Origin: a virus
Virus record (IMG/VR): IMGVR_UViG_3300031957_003344
Coordinates: 1-29,196 of that record
Strand: one strand, 5' to 3'
DNA length: 29,196 bases
Part shown: positions 5,661 through 16,692 of the stretch, piece by piece
How positions within the stretch are numbered: the first letter of the stretch is position 1
Layout: the number at the start of each line of letters is the position of its first letter
The notes under the pieces: generated by a model
What the model was told of the DNA's origin: nothing
Databases searched by the model: none
What the model saw: only the letters and a program-made list of their open reading frames with translations
Translations under genes and position numbers: made by a program

Positions 5661-6302
5661 TTACAAATTTACATTTTTTTCGGTTGCTATTATAATTTCC
5701 AAGCACAATTTATCCGGGATTATGCTTCTTTCGTAATTGTCTTTTAACCCTTGTGTTCCTGTTGGGGAACCTCTCGGCGCATCCTCATGATGGCATTTGA
5801 TATTTCCATTAAAACAAATTGGAATCGGTTGCCAACCCATTGGATGAAACATGTCATGGAAATTATTTGACCAAATATCGGTAGGTTTCATGCGTATATC
5901 CCCATAAGAGCAATAGGTAACGGTTTTTCGGTTTATACCTTTGACCTTTCGCCTCATTTTTCCCCTTGGATTTTCCATGTAAAAAATTGAATTAGGAAAC
6001 CATGTAAATATTTCCAACGTTTTTTCTAATATTTTCAAACCTAACAAAGCTTCCTTGGTTTTTGGTTCATGGTTTTCATACCAATGCACACCAATACTTG
6101 CAACGGAAAAATAGGTGCAAGGAGGGGATGCCCATATCATATCGGGAATAAAAGGGATGTCCTCAATGGTTAAATCCAAAATGTCCTTCACTAAGGATAT
6201 TCCCTCAAAATTATTAATATCCACGCTATAAACAAAGTGTCCCCTTGCCTCGCAAATTTTTCCTATTGATCGGGAACCTGCGAAAAGTTCCAAAACCTTC
6301 AC
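5661..6302 (-). CDS. Compact cytosine-C5 DNA methyltransferase
   Basis: 213 residues. Motif I (LELFAGSRSIGK, residues 4-15) binds S-adenosylmethionine, YSVDIN (25-30) fits motif II, and WASPPCTYFS (57-66) is motif IV with the catalytic cysteine C62. Motif VI appears as ENP (110-112) in place of the usual ENV. Further on are CSYGDIRMKPTDIW (131-144) and a Cys/His segment KCHHEDAPRGS (169-179) common to a small phage-borne family. It is much shorter than ordinary Dcm-type enzymes and has no large target-recognition domain. No restriction partner is nearby, so protection against host restriction, or supplying 5-methylcytosine for further modification, is more likely than a restriction-modification pair. 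It is the last gene of the leftward operon and overlaps the upstream gene by four bases. Confidence 0.8.
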   Translation of the reverse strand: MKVLELFAGSRSIGKICEARGHFVYSVDINNFEGISLVKDILDLTIEDIPFIPDMIWASPPCTYFSVASIGVHWYENHEPKTKEALLGLKILEKTLEIFTWFPNSIFYMENPRGKMRRKVKGINRKTVTYCSYGDIRMKPTDIWSNNFHDMFHPMGWQPIPICFNGNIKCHHEDAPRGSPTGTQGLKDNYERSIIPDKLCLEIIIATEKNVNL

Positions 6303-6667: not shown

Positions 6668-7111
6668 TTAATATTTTATTTTGAATCCTTTTTTATCATA
6701 TAAACTCTTAAATTTAACTTCCATAGGCTCTGACCTTAAAACTTCCTCGCCTCTATAACGGGTATAATATTTATAGTCATTTTCCGTCCAATCAAAAGGG
6801 ATAGGTTGTTGTAAGGCAAAAAGCAACATTTGATGCCATTTGCAAAATTCAGCCGTAACATGAGGATGCCAAAATGTAACTTCACTAATATCTATTTCCT
6901 TTTCTTTGTGAAATTTATACCTACAAAACGCCATGGGCGAACCCCATCCTACATATTTATCACCTACTTTGGCGGTGATTGTTTTGTGGTATTTTTCGGC
7001 TAATTCTAAAGCTCCAACACCATCAGAGGTGAATACGGGTGAATTGGTTTTAATAGTGTGTCCTGTTAGAACAACTTCGCCCGATAGGGGACTTATGCGA
7101 TATTTACTCAT
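6668..7111 (-). CDS. Hypothetical protein of the leftward early operon
   Basis: 147 residues, not recognised. It begins MSKYRISPLSGEVVLTGHTI and has a mixed alpha/beta pattern, a central FWHPHVTAEFCKWHQMLLFA segment rich in aromatic residues, His and Cys, and a basic C-terminus. It starts four bases after the gene upstream ends and ends two bases before the 54-residue gene starts, so it is part of the same transcript. No signal peptide or membrane helix is visible. Confidence 0.6.
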   Translation of the reverse strand: MSKYRISPLSGEVVLTGHTIKTNSPVFTSDGVGALELAEKYHKTITAKVGDKYVGWGSPMAFCRYKFHKEKEIDISEVTFWHPHVTAEFCKWHQMLLFALQQPIPFDWTENDYKYYTRYRGEEVLRSEPMEVKFKSLYDKKGFKIKY

Positions 7112-7115
7112 TTTT

Positions 7116-7478
7116 TTAAAGTTCTGCGGTTATATGGCAATCCATTTTGTTTTCTACAATATAATCACGGATTTGTTTTCCCAATTCATAATTTGCATAG
7201 TGTTTTAAATCAATTTGAGTAACACCATATTCCTTTAAAATTTCATCATTCCATCCTAATTCGGCTAAAAACATATCTTTAACCCTTTGTATTCCTTCGC
7301 CATGTTCTTTGATCATTTTTTTTAATTGGGATTTTACAAAGGGTAATTTATCCCTCTCAACCCAATATTCTACATAATTTGAATCTAAAACCTCTGCGCC
7401 AAATATCTCAGGTGCGTTGCTTGGTTGTATGGCAAACATAAATTTTCCTTCTATGTCGCCTGTATAATATCTACCCAT
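7116..7478 (-). CDS. Hypothetical protein (MGRYYTGDIEGKF type)
   Basis: 120 residues. The opening MGRYYTGDIEGKFMFAIQPS is a start I recall in phage and bacterial hypothetical proteins, but no function is known to me. The rest is helical and charged (KLPFVKSQLKKMIKEHGEG, LGKQIRDYIVENK). It has one base between it and the upstream gene. The DNA opposite contains an open frame on the plus strand (6933-7208) that I regard as a shadow. Confidence 0.6.
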   Translation of the reverse strand: MGRYYTGDIEGKFMFAIQPSNAPEIFGAEVLDSNYVEYWVERDKLPFVKSQLKKMIKEHGEGIQRVKDMFLAELGWNDEILKEYGVTQIDLKHYANYELGKQIRDYIVENKMDCHITAEL

Positions 7479-7479
7479 T

Positions 7480-7713
7480 TTATTTTAGTTTAGTTATTTG
7501 TACTTCACACCATCCTTTTTCGCTATGTGAGGGTTGCGCCTTTATCTTTTCCGTTGTCAGTAACGTTGCTAATGCACAGGTCGCCTTCCAAAGCGCAGGT
7601 TCGGGGATTTCATCATGTTCATCGTCATACATAATCATTCCCCTACATTCATACATTTCGGCGCATTCGTCATATTTAAACGAATAACCATTAATTCTGA
7701 TTCTACTTTCCAT
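7480..7713 (-). CDS. Hypothetical small protein (77 aa)
   Basis: 77 residues, not recognised. A beta-rich N-terminal half (RIRINGYSFKYDECAEMYECRG) contains two cysteines and an acidic stretch (YDDEHDEIPEP) and is followed by a helix (ALWKATCALATLLTTEKI). It overlaps the 48-residue gene upstream by 11 bases. Nothing indicates membrane location. Confidence 0.55.
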   Translation of the reverse strand: MESRIRINGYSFKYDECAEMYECRGMIMYDDEHDEIPEPALWKATCALATLLTTEKIKAQPSHSEKGWCEVQITKLK

Positions 7714-7849
7714 TTTTTTTTGGTTTTTTTTCTATTGGCATTGATAGTTTAGAACACAGGTCACGCCAAAATTTAACCCTTGTCCTTAATTCTATTATTT
7801 CCTCTTGTTGTTTTTTTAGGAGGTATGTATTTAAAACGTCATTAGTCAT
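7703..7849 (-). CDS. Tiny coiled-coil-like protein (48 aa)
   Basis: 48 residues; ATG at 7849 overlapping the upstream stop as ATGA, stop TAG at 7703-7705. Residues 10-30 (LLKKQQEEIIELRTRVKFW) form a strongly amphipathic helix, and the C-terminus is lysine-rich (IEKKPKKNGK). The exact four-base coupling to its upstream neighbour, seen throughout this operon, is the main argument that it is a real gene. The long A-runs near its end (minus strand) make this region sensitive to sequencing indels. Confidence 0.45.
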   Translation of the reverse strand: MTNDVLNTYLLKKQQEEIIELRTRVKFWRDLCSKLSMPIEKKPKKNGK

Positions 7850-13130: not shown

Positions 13131-13337
13131 ATGACAGCACGAAAAGCCAAGAGGCATATGAATGAAGCCGAGGACTTTTTAGTCATCAGCAAAGTAAAAG
13201 GCATTATTTATGTGGACACTAAAGATAACGATTCCGTAAATATCATTGGTGATTTGGCGGTAGCCAATAAAGACTTTAGAAAATATTTAAAAGAAATCCT
13301 TAAAGCCATAGAATCCTATGAAAAAGAAACCGATTAA
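13131..13337 (+). CDS. Hypothetical small protein (68 aa)
   Basis: 68 residues, not recognised. It has a basic start (TARKAKRHMNEAEDFL), a beta hairpin-like middle (KGIIYVDTKDNDSVNIIGDL) and an amphipathic C-terminal helix (DFRKYLKEILKAIESYEKE). It begins two bases after the DnaA-like gene stops and overlaps the ParB-like gene by 20 bases, so it is within the same operon. Confidence 0.5.
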   Translation: MTARKAKRHMNEAEDFLVISKVKGIIYVDTKDNDSVNIIGDLAVANKDFRKYLKEILKAIESYEKETD

Positions 13338-13866
13338 AAAAATACAATATCGTCCTATTTCGCAAGTGCAATTGAATCCGAACAATCCGAGGACAATGGA
13401 TAAAAATGATTTCCAAAATTTAAAGAAATCAATTGAAGAATTTCCTCAAATGTTGCAGGTCAGACCATTGGGTGTGGCAGACGGAATTGTAATAGGCGGA
13501 AATATGAGGTTATTGGCGATGAAGGATTTAGGATTTAAAGAAGTACCCTGCATAGATATTTCCGATTTTACACCCGAACAATTGCAGGAATTTCTTATCA
13601 AGGACAATCTCAGTTATGGGAAATGGGATTGGGACGCCCTTGCAAATGAGTGGGACACGGAATTATTAAATGATTGGGGGTTCGAAATTATGGCATTAGA
13701 GGAAATGTTCGATGAGGGAGCAATTGATGAAAGGATGGAATTATCAGAAAAAGAGGAGGTGGTGATTACCCTTACCATGCCATATTATGAGTATCAAAAG
13801 GCGGAAAAGGAAATCAATAATTTAACCAACAACTATCCAAATATGACATGCAGAATCCAAAATTAA
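13318..13866 (+). CDS. ParB/Srx-fold protein
   Basis: 182 residues. The N-terminal 95 residues form a ParB-like domain: VQLNPNNPRTMDKNDFQNLK, then a GIVIGGNMRLLAMKDLGFKEVPCI block that carries the GGNxR nucleotide-binding loop. ParB-fold proteins bind CTP or ATP and act in DNA segregation, nicking or kinase roles; phage copies often accompany or are fused to DNA methylases. Here the methylase part is absent and a short tail (EEVVITLTMPYYEYQKAEKE) remains. It is placed just before a glycosyltransferase and the terminase genes. Catalytic type cannot be decided from sequence. Confidence 0.75.
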   Translation: MKKKPIKKIQYRPISQVQLNPNNPRTMDKNDFQNLKKSIEEFPQMLQVRPLGVADGIVIGGNMRLLAMKDLGFKEVPCIDISDFTPEQLQEFLIKDNLSYGKWDWDALANEWDTELLNDWGFEIMALEEMFDEGAIDERMELSEKEEVVITLTMPYYEYQKAEKEINNLTNNYPNMTCRIQN

Positions 13867-15197
13867 ATGTCTTAATTTATCCGATGCTCTCGGTGGATAC
13901 CTTAAACGCCGACAGCAACTATATTATCATTAAGCAATTATGTAATGAATTAATAAAAACGGGTAGGTATAATTTTTTCCTGTTATTGGATTCTAATAGG
14001 AAATTAGTTAAGGATGATTTAAGCGCCTTGGTAAAAATCATAAAAATACCTATGCCAAAAGCCAAAAAACACCAAGTCATCCATCTAAACAGCAATATAT
14101 TTAGGCAAATATTTAAAAAATATGCTTTTGATATTATTTGGAATAATGTTGTGGAACAGGGACATCACTTAAGATATTTCCAAGACACGATAGTAGAGGA
14201 TTTTCGGCCCAAGGTATTCAATTATCACCATTATGTTATTCACAGGTCTTTGGACAAGGTAACAAGTTACAACCCTTGCCGCCATATAATGTATGACCAA
14301 TTGATCGGTTCGTTAGGCGCAGACATGAACTTTTTCCATACCAATTATTGTTATGAGATGCTAGAGGAGGAGGCAAAGGATATTTTATTGCCGAAAAGGG
14401 TAAAAGAGATAAAAAGTAAAAGTGTAATTTCCTTAGGAGGGTATATTGATGAAATAAAAAGCAAGGAAAAATATGACATATTTACTTTTATCTTCAATCA
14501 TAGATTGGACGGGTATAAAAATTGGAAACAAACCTTCGAGGTTTTTGACCAATTATGGACTGAGGGGTTAAAATTTCAGGTAGTTCTCACCGCCGGGGAT
14601 AAAGACAATATCAATACAATAAATAAGAAGCCTTATACCGTAGTCAAATCATTTACTAAACACCAAGACTATATTAAGGAACTTTCCAAATGTCATGCTA
14701 ATACCCTAAATTCAAAACACGAAACTTATTGCATATCGGTTGCGGAAAGTATAATGAATAACCAAATAGTAATTTTACCCAACCGATGCACCTTTCCTGA
14801 ATTGGTTGACCAAAATTATCCCTACCTATTTAATGATATGGACCAGCAAATTAAAATGCTGAGAGGTTTGATTAAGGATGGAATAAAAGAATATAAATAT
14901 AAGGAGAGTGGTAAATTAAAATTAACGAACCATGCCATCAATATTCACAAATATTTCTTAGGATTGGGTAAAGGGAATAAATCAGACATTTTTAACAGCA
15001 TAAAAAAAGATGCCTCAAAGAAAAAAATAATCGAATATTTTGAGCATAATGATCAAATCCAAATAGAGGTGTTTAAAAATTTCGTCTTTAAATTAGGATA
15101 TGCTTCACAAAGTTTTCCTAACGGGAAGTTAAAAAGGATATTAAATGAATTTGGTTACGATTACAACATATCATTAGACAAATATGTAAAAACATGA
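13848..15197 (+). CDS. GT-B glycosyltransferase (GT4-like)
   Basis: 449 residues. The N-terminal domain (1-195) has an LNVLIYPML start and a Rossmann-like pattern. The second Rossmann domain begins near KYDIFTFIFNHRLDGYKNWK (208-227), typical of the region that opens the sugar-nucleotide-binding half. FQVVLTAG (243-250), a KELSKCHANTLNS segment and HETYCISVAE (291-300) follow; E292 and E300 form the E-x7-E motif of retaining GT4 enzymes. Residues 380-449 are an extra helical domain. Its targets could be phage DNA, virion proteins or host surface sugar. It overlaps the ParB-like gene by 19 bases and the small terminase gene by four, so it belongs to the terminase transcript rather than a separate cargo insert. 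Confidence 0.75.
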   Translation: MQNPKLNVLIYPMLSVDTLNADSNYIIIKQLCNELIKTGRYNFFLLLDSNRKLVKDDLSALVKIIKIPMPKAKKHQVIHLNSNIFRQIFKKYAFDIIWNNVVEQGHHLRYFQDTIVEDFRPKVFNYHHYVIHRSLDKVTSYNPCRHIMYDQLIGSLGADMNFFHTNYCYEMLEEEAKDILLPKRVKEIKSKSVISLGGYIDEIKSKEKYDIFTFIFNHRLDGYKNWKQTFEVFDQLWTEGLKFQVVLTAGDKDNINTINKKPYTVVKSFTKHQDYIKELSKCHANTLNSKHETYCISVAESIMNNQIVILPNRCTFPELVDQNYPYLFNDMDQQIKMLRGLIKDGIKEYKYKESGKLKLTNHAINIHKYFLGLGKGNKSDIFNSIKKDASKKKIIEYFEHNDQIQIEVFKNFVFKLGYASQSFPNGKLKRILNEFGYDYNISLDKYVKT

Positions 15198-15541
15198 CAC
15201 AAAAAACCAACAAAATCCGACAGACTAAGGAATCTCTAATACAAGCATTAGAAAAAACCTTAGGCGTGGTTACACCTGCATGTAAACAAGTGGGCATACA
15301 TAGGTCCACCTTTTATGAATATTATAAAACTGACGATGAATTTAAACAAAGGGTAGATGATATGATAAACCTACAATTAGATTTTTCGGAGAGTAAATTG
15401 TTTAAATTGATAGAGGATAACCACCCACCTTCGGTACATTTTCATTTAAAATATAAAGGGCAATCCCGTGGGTATGCTGAAAGGCAGGAGGTAACGGTAA
15501 CGGAGAAAAAACCGCTTTCGTGGTTTGATGAAAAGGATTGA
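15194..15541 (+). CDS. Terminase small subunit
   Basis: 115 residues. The N-terminal 50 residues contain a helix-turn-helix (ESLIQALEKTLGVVTPACKQVGIHRSTFYEYYKT), followed by a helical oligomerisation part (FKQRVDDMINLQLDFSESKL) and a short C-terminal end (GYAERQEVTVTEKKPLSWF). This is the layout of small terminases that recognise the packaging site and form a ring. It overlaps the glycosyltransferase gene upstream and the large terminase downstream, which confirms the call. HTH and length are as expected for the family. Confidence 0.8.
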   Translation: MTQKTNKIRQTKESLIQALEKTLGVVTPACKQVGIHRSTFYEYYKTDDEFKQRVDDMINLQLDFSESKLFKLIEDNHPPSVHFHLKYKGQSRGYAERQEVTVTEKKPLSWFDEKD

Positions 15542-16692
15542 AACAACCTGCTACATACTATCAGGCTAAATCCTGCCATCAAAAAATACAGGTACACCAA
15601 GGCGGAACTAGATCGGGCAAGACATGGAGTTTATTAAATGTCCTAATAGAATTATGTTTTAACCATGATGGCGCAGGTATGGTAATTACGATAGCAAGGA
15701 AAACCTTCCCCGCTTTAAGGGCATCGGTCATGCGTGATTTTTTTACCATCTTAAATAACGAGGACATTTATGAACCTAAGAACCATAACAAATCAGAATC
15801 TACCTACACCCTTTATGGCAATCTAATCGAATTTATTAGCGTGGACCAACCGCAAAAGGTAAGGGGAAGGAAACGGGATGTCTTATTTATAAATGAGGCA
15901 AACGAAATATCGTTAGAGGATTGGAGGCAATTGTTATTACGAACCACCTTTAAAACAATAATAGATTATAACCCATCGGACGAGTACCATTGGATTTACG
16001 ATGATGTATTGGAACGGGATGATGTGGAATTCTTTAAGACAACTTATTTAGACAATCCGTTTTTAGAACAAAGCGTAATAGACGAAATTGAAAGATTTAG
16101 GTACACGGACGAAAATTATTGGCGAGTGTATGGGTTGGGTGAGCGTGGTGTAAATATGGCGGCGGTGTTTACCAATTGGCAAGAGGTTGATGAAGTGCCT
16201 GAAAGGGCAAAATTGGTGGCATTTGGAATAGATTGGGGTTTTACTAATGACCCCACGGCAATAGTTTCCGTTTATAGAGAGAATTATAATTTGTATATTC
16301 GGGAACACCTTTACAAAACAGGGTTAACCAACAGGGATATTAGCATTGAATTAGACAAATTGAATTTAGAAAGGACACCAATTATTTGTGATAGCGCAGA
16401 GCCTAAATCAATAGAGGAATTATTTCGTTTAGGTCATAATGTCAAACCTTCCAAAAAAGGTCCTGATAGCGTAAGGTTGGGAATCGATATTATGAAACGG
16501 CACAAATTACATATATTATCCGATTCATTAAATGCTCAAAAGGAATTTAGAAATTATAGGTGGGAAACCGATAAAAATGGACACAATATAAATCGCCCAC
16601 GGGATAGCCATAACCATATTATCGATGCGGTTAGGTATATTTGCATAAATAGAATTGGAACACCGTACTCAGGAAAATATTACATTTCGTGA
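15538..16692 (+). CDS. Terminase large subunit
   Basis: 384 residues. The ATPase part shows Walker A QGGTRSGKT (21-29), Walker B LFINEA (116-121) and a coupling segment near IIDYNPSDEYHWIY. The RNase H-like nuclease part has FGIDWGFTNDPTA with D232, IICDSAEPKS with D285 and DSHNHIIDAVRY with D356/D363, the three acidic positions that hold metals. The enzyme packages and cuts phage DNA. The TTG at 15538 (in TTGA overlap with the small subunit stop) is the only start that keeps Walker A in the protein, because a stop lies three codons upstream. Family resemblance is to PBSX-type terminases. Confidence 0.92.
   Translation: MKQPATYYQAKSCHQKIQVHQGGTRSGKTWSLLNVLIELCFNHDGAGMVITIARKTFPALRASVMRDFFTILNNEDIYEPKNHNKSESTYTLYGNLIEFISVDQPQKVRGRKRDVLFINEANEISLEDWRQLLLRTTFKTIIDYNPSDEYHWIYDDVLERDDVEFFKTTYLDNPFLEQSVIDEIERFRYTDENYWRVYGLGERGVNMAAVFTNWQEVDEVPERAKLVAFGIDWGFTNDPTAIVSVYRENYNLYIREHLYKTGLTNRDISIELDKLNLERTPIICDSAEPKSIEELFRLGHNVKPSKKGPDSVRLGIDIMKRHKLHILSDSLNAQKEFRNYRWETDKNGHNINRPRDSHNHIIDAVRYICINRIGTPYSGKYYIS

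Follow-up and report, generated by a model that had tools for sequence, protein, structure and literature searches.

The viral sequence analysed here (the window: all 29,196 nucleotides of IMG/VR record IMGVR_UViG_3300031957_003344, its ends classed as linear) encodes a ParB-like protein and, overlapping it, a glycosyltransferase (GT) that runs into the gene for the small terminase subunit (TerS). We propose that these two genes form a phage DNA-modification module that glycosylates phage DNA, and we put the probability of this reading, which covers one-step and two-step chemistry alike, at roughly 78%. DNA is favoured over the virion or the host surface as the target of glycosylation. The GT, a retaining enzyme of GT4 type, would transfer a sugar from a nucleotide-sugar to phage DNA bases before packaging; the co-translated ParB-like protein would bring it to phage DNA, perhaps helped by the GT's own winged-helix-like tail; and the sugar would shield phage DNA against restriction by the host and against other defences that target DNA. 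We infer DNA as the acceptor, the ParB-like protein as the targeting partner and protection as the role.

Why call this GT a DNA modifier? Mainly because it appears to take the place of other DNA modifiers in one and the same slot, between ParB and TerS, of related phages. Our scan with a ParB alignment covers the best-scoring 80 of at least 596 loci, which are not a random sample and of which a few carry the GT. Slot contents were counted in 79 loci (L063 to L141), assigned by similarity to cluster members, 3 with the GT and 76 without, using modification families defined beforehand from the slot proteins of these same loci. A recognised DNA-modification family lies no more than 4 kb downstream of ParB in 69/76 of the non-GT loci: 26 methyltransferase fusions, 12 Mom, 8 TET, 8 TAGT, 4 TAGT plus TET, 6 ABC-GNAT, 2 C5-methyltransferases and 3 DpdA plus Que. 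The remaining 7/76 comprise two with an initially unclassified pair, which includes a PAPS-reductase/DUF3440 protein, and five with none, at least one of which is incomplete. On the upstream side, which served as control, such a family occurs in 5/57 loci. The modifier either sits between ParB and TerS or forms a C-terminal extension of ParB, and the methyltransferases are of the N6/N4 type. In the 7-deazaguanine set a DpdA-like protein, recognised by eye, accompanies QueC, PTPS/QueD, radical SAM/QueE and GTP cyclohydrolase, which were recognised by Pfam. ABC-GNAT proteins are predicted to modify DNA bases, as DNA acyl modifiers (PMC7824862), and ParBc proteins are often fused to, or encoded near, phage DNA methyltransferases and CmoX, the role of ParB there being open (PMC12783734). 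In a tblastn search with the slot proteins of the other modification families, the GT loci gave no match, bar two weak ones of the GT4 of locus L122. That one ParB family goes with so many different DNA-base modifiers is most readily accounted for by DNA being their common substrate.

Further arrangements of the slot were observed. In L122 (5509-10079) and L118 (2428-5630) it holds an apparent 7-deazaguanine pathway (a protein that is DpdA-like by eye, QueD/PTPS, a QueE-like radical SAM protein and GTP cyclohydrolase), with QueC in L118; the slot of L122 also contains a GT4 (6722-7723), hinting at glycosylated deazaguanine. We do not claim this GT4 as an orthologue of the window GT, the match being made only via a widened profile, at 27.5 bits. 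L102 (5083-7073) and L119 (5590-7580) pair an unclassified 265-amino-acid slot protein with a PAPS-reductase/DUF3440 protein (QueC/PP-loop-like), possibly an unrecognised DNA modification. An amino acid:DNA transferase (PF18724) shares the slot with TET/JBP in L137 (6483-7205), and in L082 (2162-3067) a 301-amino-acid slot protein free of Pfam matches adjoins a TET/JBP gene as a candidate new partner. L067, L086, L109, L117 and L121 carry TAGT in the slot, and these short records give no match to TET/JBP; they may be fragments or TET-independent.

The ParB-like protein matches PF02195 (ParB_N) in Pfam (E 4.9e-7, 30.1 bits against a cut-off of 26.3), and in PHROG phrog_498, a ParB-methyltransferase fusion family named 'DNA methyltransferase' (E 1.2e-28). 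G60, G61 and R64 of its GG-x-x-R box are invariant, N62 and M63 nearly so. By its sequence the protein is a member of the ParB/sulfiredoxin superfamily, of which binding of CTP or ATP, or clamp loading, would be the biochemical mark. As the original prediction, an earlier reading of the letters alone, had stated, ParB, GT and TerS form a run of genes coupled by overlaps (Table 1); 4 nucleotides are shared by GT and TerS (15194-15197), and 4 again by TerS and the large subunit TerL. Wherever the record of a GT locus includes the upstream region, ParB lies directly before the GT, and the overlap of 19 nucleotides is exact in all pairs scanned except that of L023, whose parB is cut short by an in-frame stop codon. 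The most diverged GT (L061, 43% identity) is preceded by an open reading frame that is ParB by profile (E 2e-11) and that tblastn misses. The pair is retained even where the terminase differs or cannot be recognised. This conserved overlap suggests translational coupling of ParB and GT. A programmed frameshift joining the two was also considered; inspection by eye revealed no clear slippery site, and translational coupling is simpler. Scanning viral contigs with the single ParB sequence gave no confirmed match, and it was the alignment scan that succeeded.

The GT itself matches PF00534 (Glycos_transf_1; E 2e-7, 31.2 bits against a cut-off of 26.4). A single-sequence scan of IMG/VR found 53 loci with GTs of 58-79% identity, an alignment scan raised this to at least 61 with identity down to 43% (L061), and a still broader alignment, used for a third scan, found no further loci; these counts are lower bounds, and more distant GTs may exist. 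Retaining GT4 enzymes are recognised by an E-x7-E motif, an Arg and a Lys at the donor site and a His at the acceptor side. The E-x7-E pair pointed out in the original prediction, E292 (14721-14723) and E300 (14745-14747), is invariant in 28/28 aligned GTs, as are R219, K224, H127 and H128, and all of these residues are kept in L061. In an AlphaFold2 model built on the natural alignment (predicted local distance difference test score, pLDDT, 82; predicted template modelling score, pTM, 0.85), residues 2-378 resemble many GT4 structures in the PDB, among them sucrose-phosphate synthase (Z 30.0), MshA (29.3) and BshA (29.0), as well as PglA and WaaG, while a PDB search by sequence gave nothing significant. 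By Pfam, motif and modelled fold, the GT is a GT4-type enzyme with a GT-B fold and intact catalytic residues. T4 AGT and BGT are not among the PDB structure matches listed, which is no proof of absence. A closest match to lipopolysaccharide (LPS) glycosyltransferases had been put forward as a refutation of DNA or virion glycosylation; this comparison does not discriminate, because matches to many GT4 enzymes, WaaG included, are expected of the shared fold. Modelled alone (pLDDT 85, pTM 0.66), residues 384-449 give weak matches (Foldseek E ~0.8, Z at most 6.5) that include many winged-helix domains, which suggests a possible DNA-binding domain. The isoelectric point of the GT is about 9.

Pairwise ratios of non-synonymous to synonymous substitution rates (dN/dS) of 0.03-0.08 place the GT under purifying selection, and these values, together with the recurring exact overlap, set the ParB/GT observation beyond chance. 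We compared gene content in 11 long GT-bearing records (22-32 kb, window included). ParB, GT and six other gene clusters only are universal; the six, located beyond TerL among the late genes, resemble virion genes. Median identity is 62% for the GT and 28-49% for the other universal clusters, and capsid and portal, present in 10/11 records, reach 34-36% (capsid 34%). The GT is the best-conserved protein common to these phages. No cultured phage is a close relative; tblastn of INPHARED for direct GT homologues returned only the remote GTs of Arthrobacter phages. No host or prophage link can be drawn for the GT, because two scans of genome contigs gave no relative.

Does the association with ParB extend to isolated phages? 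The best PHROG of the window GT is phrog_30253, to which the GT of Arthrobacter Kelleziovirus belongs, and in BFVD the GTs of BeatusComedenti and Kitkat are its first and third structure matches (E 1e-17 to 1e-19), far above generic viral GT4s. In Arthrobacter phage BeatusComedenti the GT (gp92, profile E 1.4e-15) stands two genes from ParB (gp94), and in DanielleIgnace GT gp97 and ParB gp98 overlap. The terminase genes of the Arthrobacter phage records are at the opposite end from GT and ParB; the KellEzio and Kitkat genomes have been described as probably circularly permuted (PMC5513430). Searches that started from the Arthrobacter GTs reached Stenotrophomonas phage DLP3 and Agrobacterium phage JP1, in which GT and ParB (gp102/gp104 and gp4/gp7, respectively) belong to one run just upstream of terminase. 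Because gene order in the isolates differs from that of the window, the GT-ParB association has arisen, or been retained, on more than one occasion, and the DLP3 and JP1 synteny counts regardless of strict orthology to the window GT. Genomic DNA of DLP3 resists 15/15 restriction enzymes, from which its authors infer modified DNA, leaving the type open (PMC7326821). This is the nearest experimental hint for the GT, an indirect one.

Possible partner genes were sought in the four isolate records. Neither TET/JBP nor PF00303 was found in them, in a run in which the positive control for TET/JBP stayed silent. DLP3 gp141 (L201:17757-18533), annotated as a thymidylate synthase, is by Pfam a DSP-type phosphatase and gives no evidence of a hydroxymethylase. 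The unannotated DLP3 gp107 (L201:768-1661) is ThyX-like, and DLP3 is the only one of the four with such a gene.

If DNA is the acceptor, which group receives the sugar? To our knowledge, hydroxymethylated (or hydroxylated) pyrimidines are the substrate of every phage DNA glycosyltransferase that has been well characterised. TET/JBP oxygenases were found in 0/37 GT records by a search that matches 11/25 relatives with other slot contents, and thymidylate-synthase-type enzymes likewise in 0/37, with the control matched in 9 genomes; TGT and ThyX each gave 0/15, and TAGT (PF20691) is present neither in the window nor in the ten other long GT records. The original prediction was right to say that neither a TET/JBP oxygenase nor a hydroxymethylase can be seen, and the observation extends across the GT family. 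The GT records are fragments, and the absence of handle genes is strong, not absolute. The cytosine-C5 methyltransferase to which the original prediction drew attention is a real gene, with a strong PHROG match and a Pfam match below the cut-off (Table 1), but a link to the GT is not supported, the gene being present in 2/11 long GT records (the window and one other). With the gene this rare among GT phages, we dropped 5-methylcytosine from this enzyme as a precursor for the GT. The SPPC motif of its product is one reported for CmoX-type carboxymethyltransferases (PMC12783734).

As no TET/JBP, thymidylate-synthase-type, TGT or ThyX enzyme was found, the GT may act directly on a canonical base, or may use a handle made by the host or by an unrecognised gene. 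The second course is a sub-case of DNA glycosylation: in two steps, a host enzyme, or a phage gene that is unrecognised or outside the fragment, would supply a hydroxylated base. We consider it plausible, at a little short of even odds. The substrates of the known enzymes, the fragmentary records and the TET plus TAGT pairs that fill the same slot in relatives argue for it; the empty searches above argue against it, as does the finding that, besides ParB, no gene outside the likely virion genes is common to all 11 long GT records. The first course, in which a ParB-guided GT4 puts a sugar directly on a canonical DNA base with no prior hydroxymethyl or hydroxyl group, as Mom and the methyltransferases act directly, is a tentative suggestion, the odds running distinctly against it.

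Several observations weigh against glycosylation of DNA altogether. Small molecules or glycans are what most GT4 enzymes act on, and the PDB structures that best match the GT are enzymes of exactly this sort. No obvious acceptor handle is encoded with the GT; the winged-helix call on its tail is weak, and such domains can also bind protein. The homology of the DLP3 GT is remote, at 14.5 bits with the profile of the window family and 65.5 only once Arthrobacter GTs are added. DLP3 DNA could owe its modification to something else, a ThyX-like gene being present, and the authors of the DLP3 study suggest a role in LPS for gp102 (PMC7326821).

What, then, if the acceptor is not DNA? The original prediction regarded virion glycosylation as an equally good alternative. 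Glycosylation of virions exists in phages, and a GT that adjoins terminase and virion genes might be expressed with the late and packaging genes and glycosylate a capsid or tail protein. We find this improbable: the relatives in the slot are DNA-modification enzymes, the GT has ParB rather than a structural gene as its coupled partner, in phages of other phyla too related GTs adjoin ParB, and capsid and tail genes have diverged to about 30%, in contrast to the conserved GT. Nothing in the neighbourhood of the GT points to the virion, and of the two branches it is the DNA branch that has gained, from slot exchange, from ParB coupling in unrelated isolates and from the resistance of DLP3 DNA. 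Might the ParB/GT unit instead serve partition, the marking of packaging sites or regulation, with the GT modifying a DNA-bound protein such as ParB or terminase? It does adjoin both ParB and TerS, and activities in the ParB superfamily are varied; the variety of DNA-base modifiers with which this one ParB family is paired makes this, too, quite unlikely. Modification of the host surface (LPS or capsule), as by seroconverting phages and as suggested for gp102, is very improbable: WaaG and PglA are among the GT4 structures matched and DLP3 has sugar-biosynthesis genes upstream, but these genes could equally provide the donor for DNA glycosylation, synteny with ParB and terminase spans several lineages, and the slot is exchanged with DNA modifiers. 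The Pfam scan of window proteins, which covered part of the open reading frames, gave no flippase or glycan gene.

Table 1. Features of the window that bear on the proposed DNA-glycosylation module
Feature	Position	Strand	Basis
ParB/sulfiredoxin-superfamily protein, 182 aa (amino acids), GGNMR box at residues 60-64	13318-13866	+	PF02195, phrog_498
GT4-type GT-B-fold retaining glycosyltransferase (GT), 449 aa, proposed DNA glycosyltransferase	13848-15197	+	PF00534, model, invariant residues
ParB/GT overlap, 19 nt (nucleotides), end of ParB with its stop over start of GT; GT frame is -1 relative to ParB	13848-13866	+	conserved length
C-terminal domain of GT, residues 384-449, helix-helix-helix-strand-strand, winged-helix-like	14997-15194	+	separate AlphaFold2 model
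Small terminase subunit TerS, edge of the modification slot	15194-15541	+	PF02954 HTH_8 (Fis-type helix-turn-helix), PHROG terminase small subunit
Large terminase subunit TerL, TTG start	15538-16692	+	Terminase_3 PF04466 E 6e-22, PF17288 E 2e-16
C5-cytosine-methyltransferase-like protein, 213 aa, SPPC motif	5661-6302	-	PF00145 E 0.003, phrog_757 E 1e-27

No tRNA genes were found in the 29,196 nucleotides. With its direct link to ParB, its terminase neighbour and its exchangeable enzyme position, the locus appears to fit the type of ParB-linked phage DNA modification, modified bases being predicted. T4 AGT and BGT, which act on 5-hydroxymethylcytosine, resemble the window GT in the GT-B fold and, as we read it, in glycosylating phage DNA as a shield against restriction. 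The window GT belongs to another sequence family (Glycos_transf_1 alone in a Pfam scan at E 0.1), has GT4-type residues, a ParB partner and a place in the terminase slot, and no dCMP-hydroxymethylase-type gene was found with it. Systems of TET/JBP and TAGT (PF12851, PF20691) fill this same stretch between ParB and TerS in related phages and also put sugar onto DNA; TAGT is another glycosyltransferase family, and no TET/JBP oxygenase was found with window-type GTs. In the ParB-linked methyltransferases and CmoX (PMC12783734), ParBc is likewise beside or fused to a DNA modifier, whereas the window enzyme is a glycosyltransferase. The DLP3/DLP5 locus (PMC7326821) also clusters a GT4-like GT, ParBc and terminase, but in the order GT-ParB, with remote sequence similarity and extra sugar-biosynthesis genes. 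In Arthrobacter Kelleziovirus and DanielleIgnace (phrog_30253) a homologous GT adjoins ParB; it is annotated merely 'glycosyltransferase', and no chemistry was found for it in the literature searched. Hypermodification of phage DNA and ParB-linked modifiers are already known; of a ParB-GT4 pair for DNA modification we found no description in that literature, which does not settle priority.

Our results point to a little-noticed and widespread route of DNA glycosylation. In this phage group the stretch from ParB to TerS would be where DNA-modification enzymes dock and are exchanged, and it may be mined for new chemistry. The ParB-GT4 pair suggests a concrete hypothesis for why DNA of the cultured phage DLP3 withstands restriction enzymes, so far unexplained, and it makes a question directly testable: can a phage glycosylate its DNA without prior hydroxylation?
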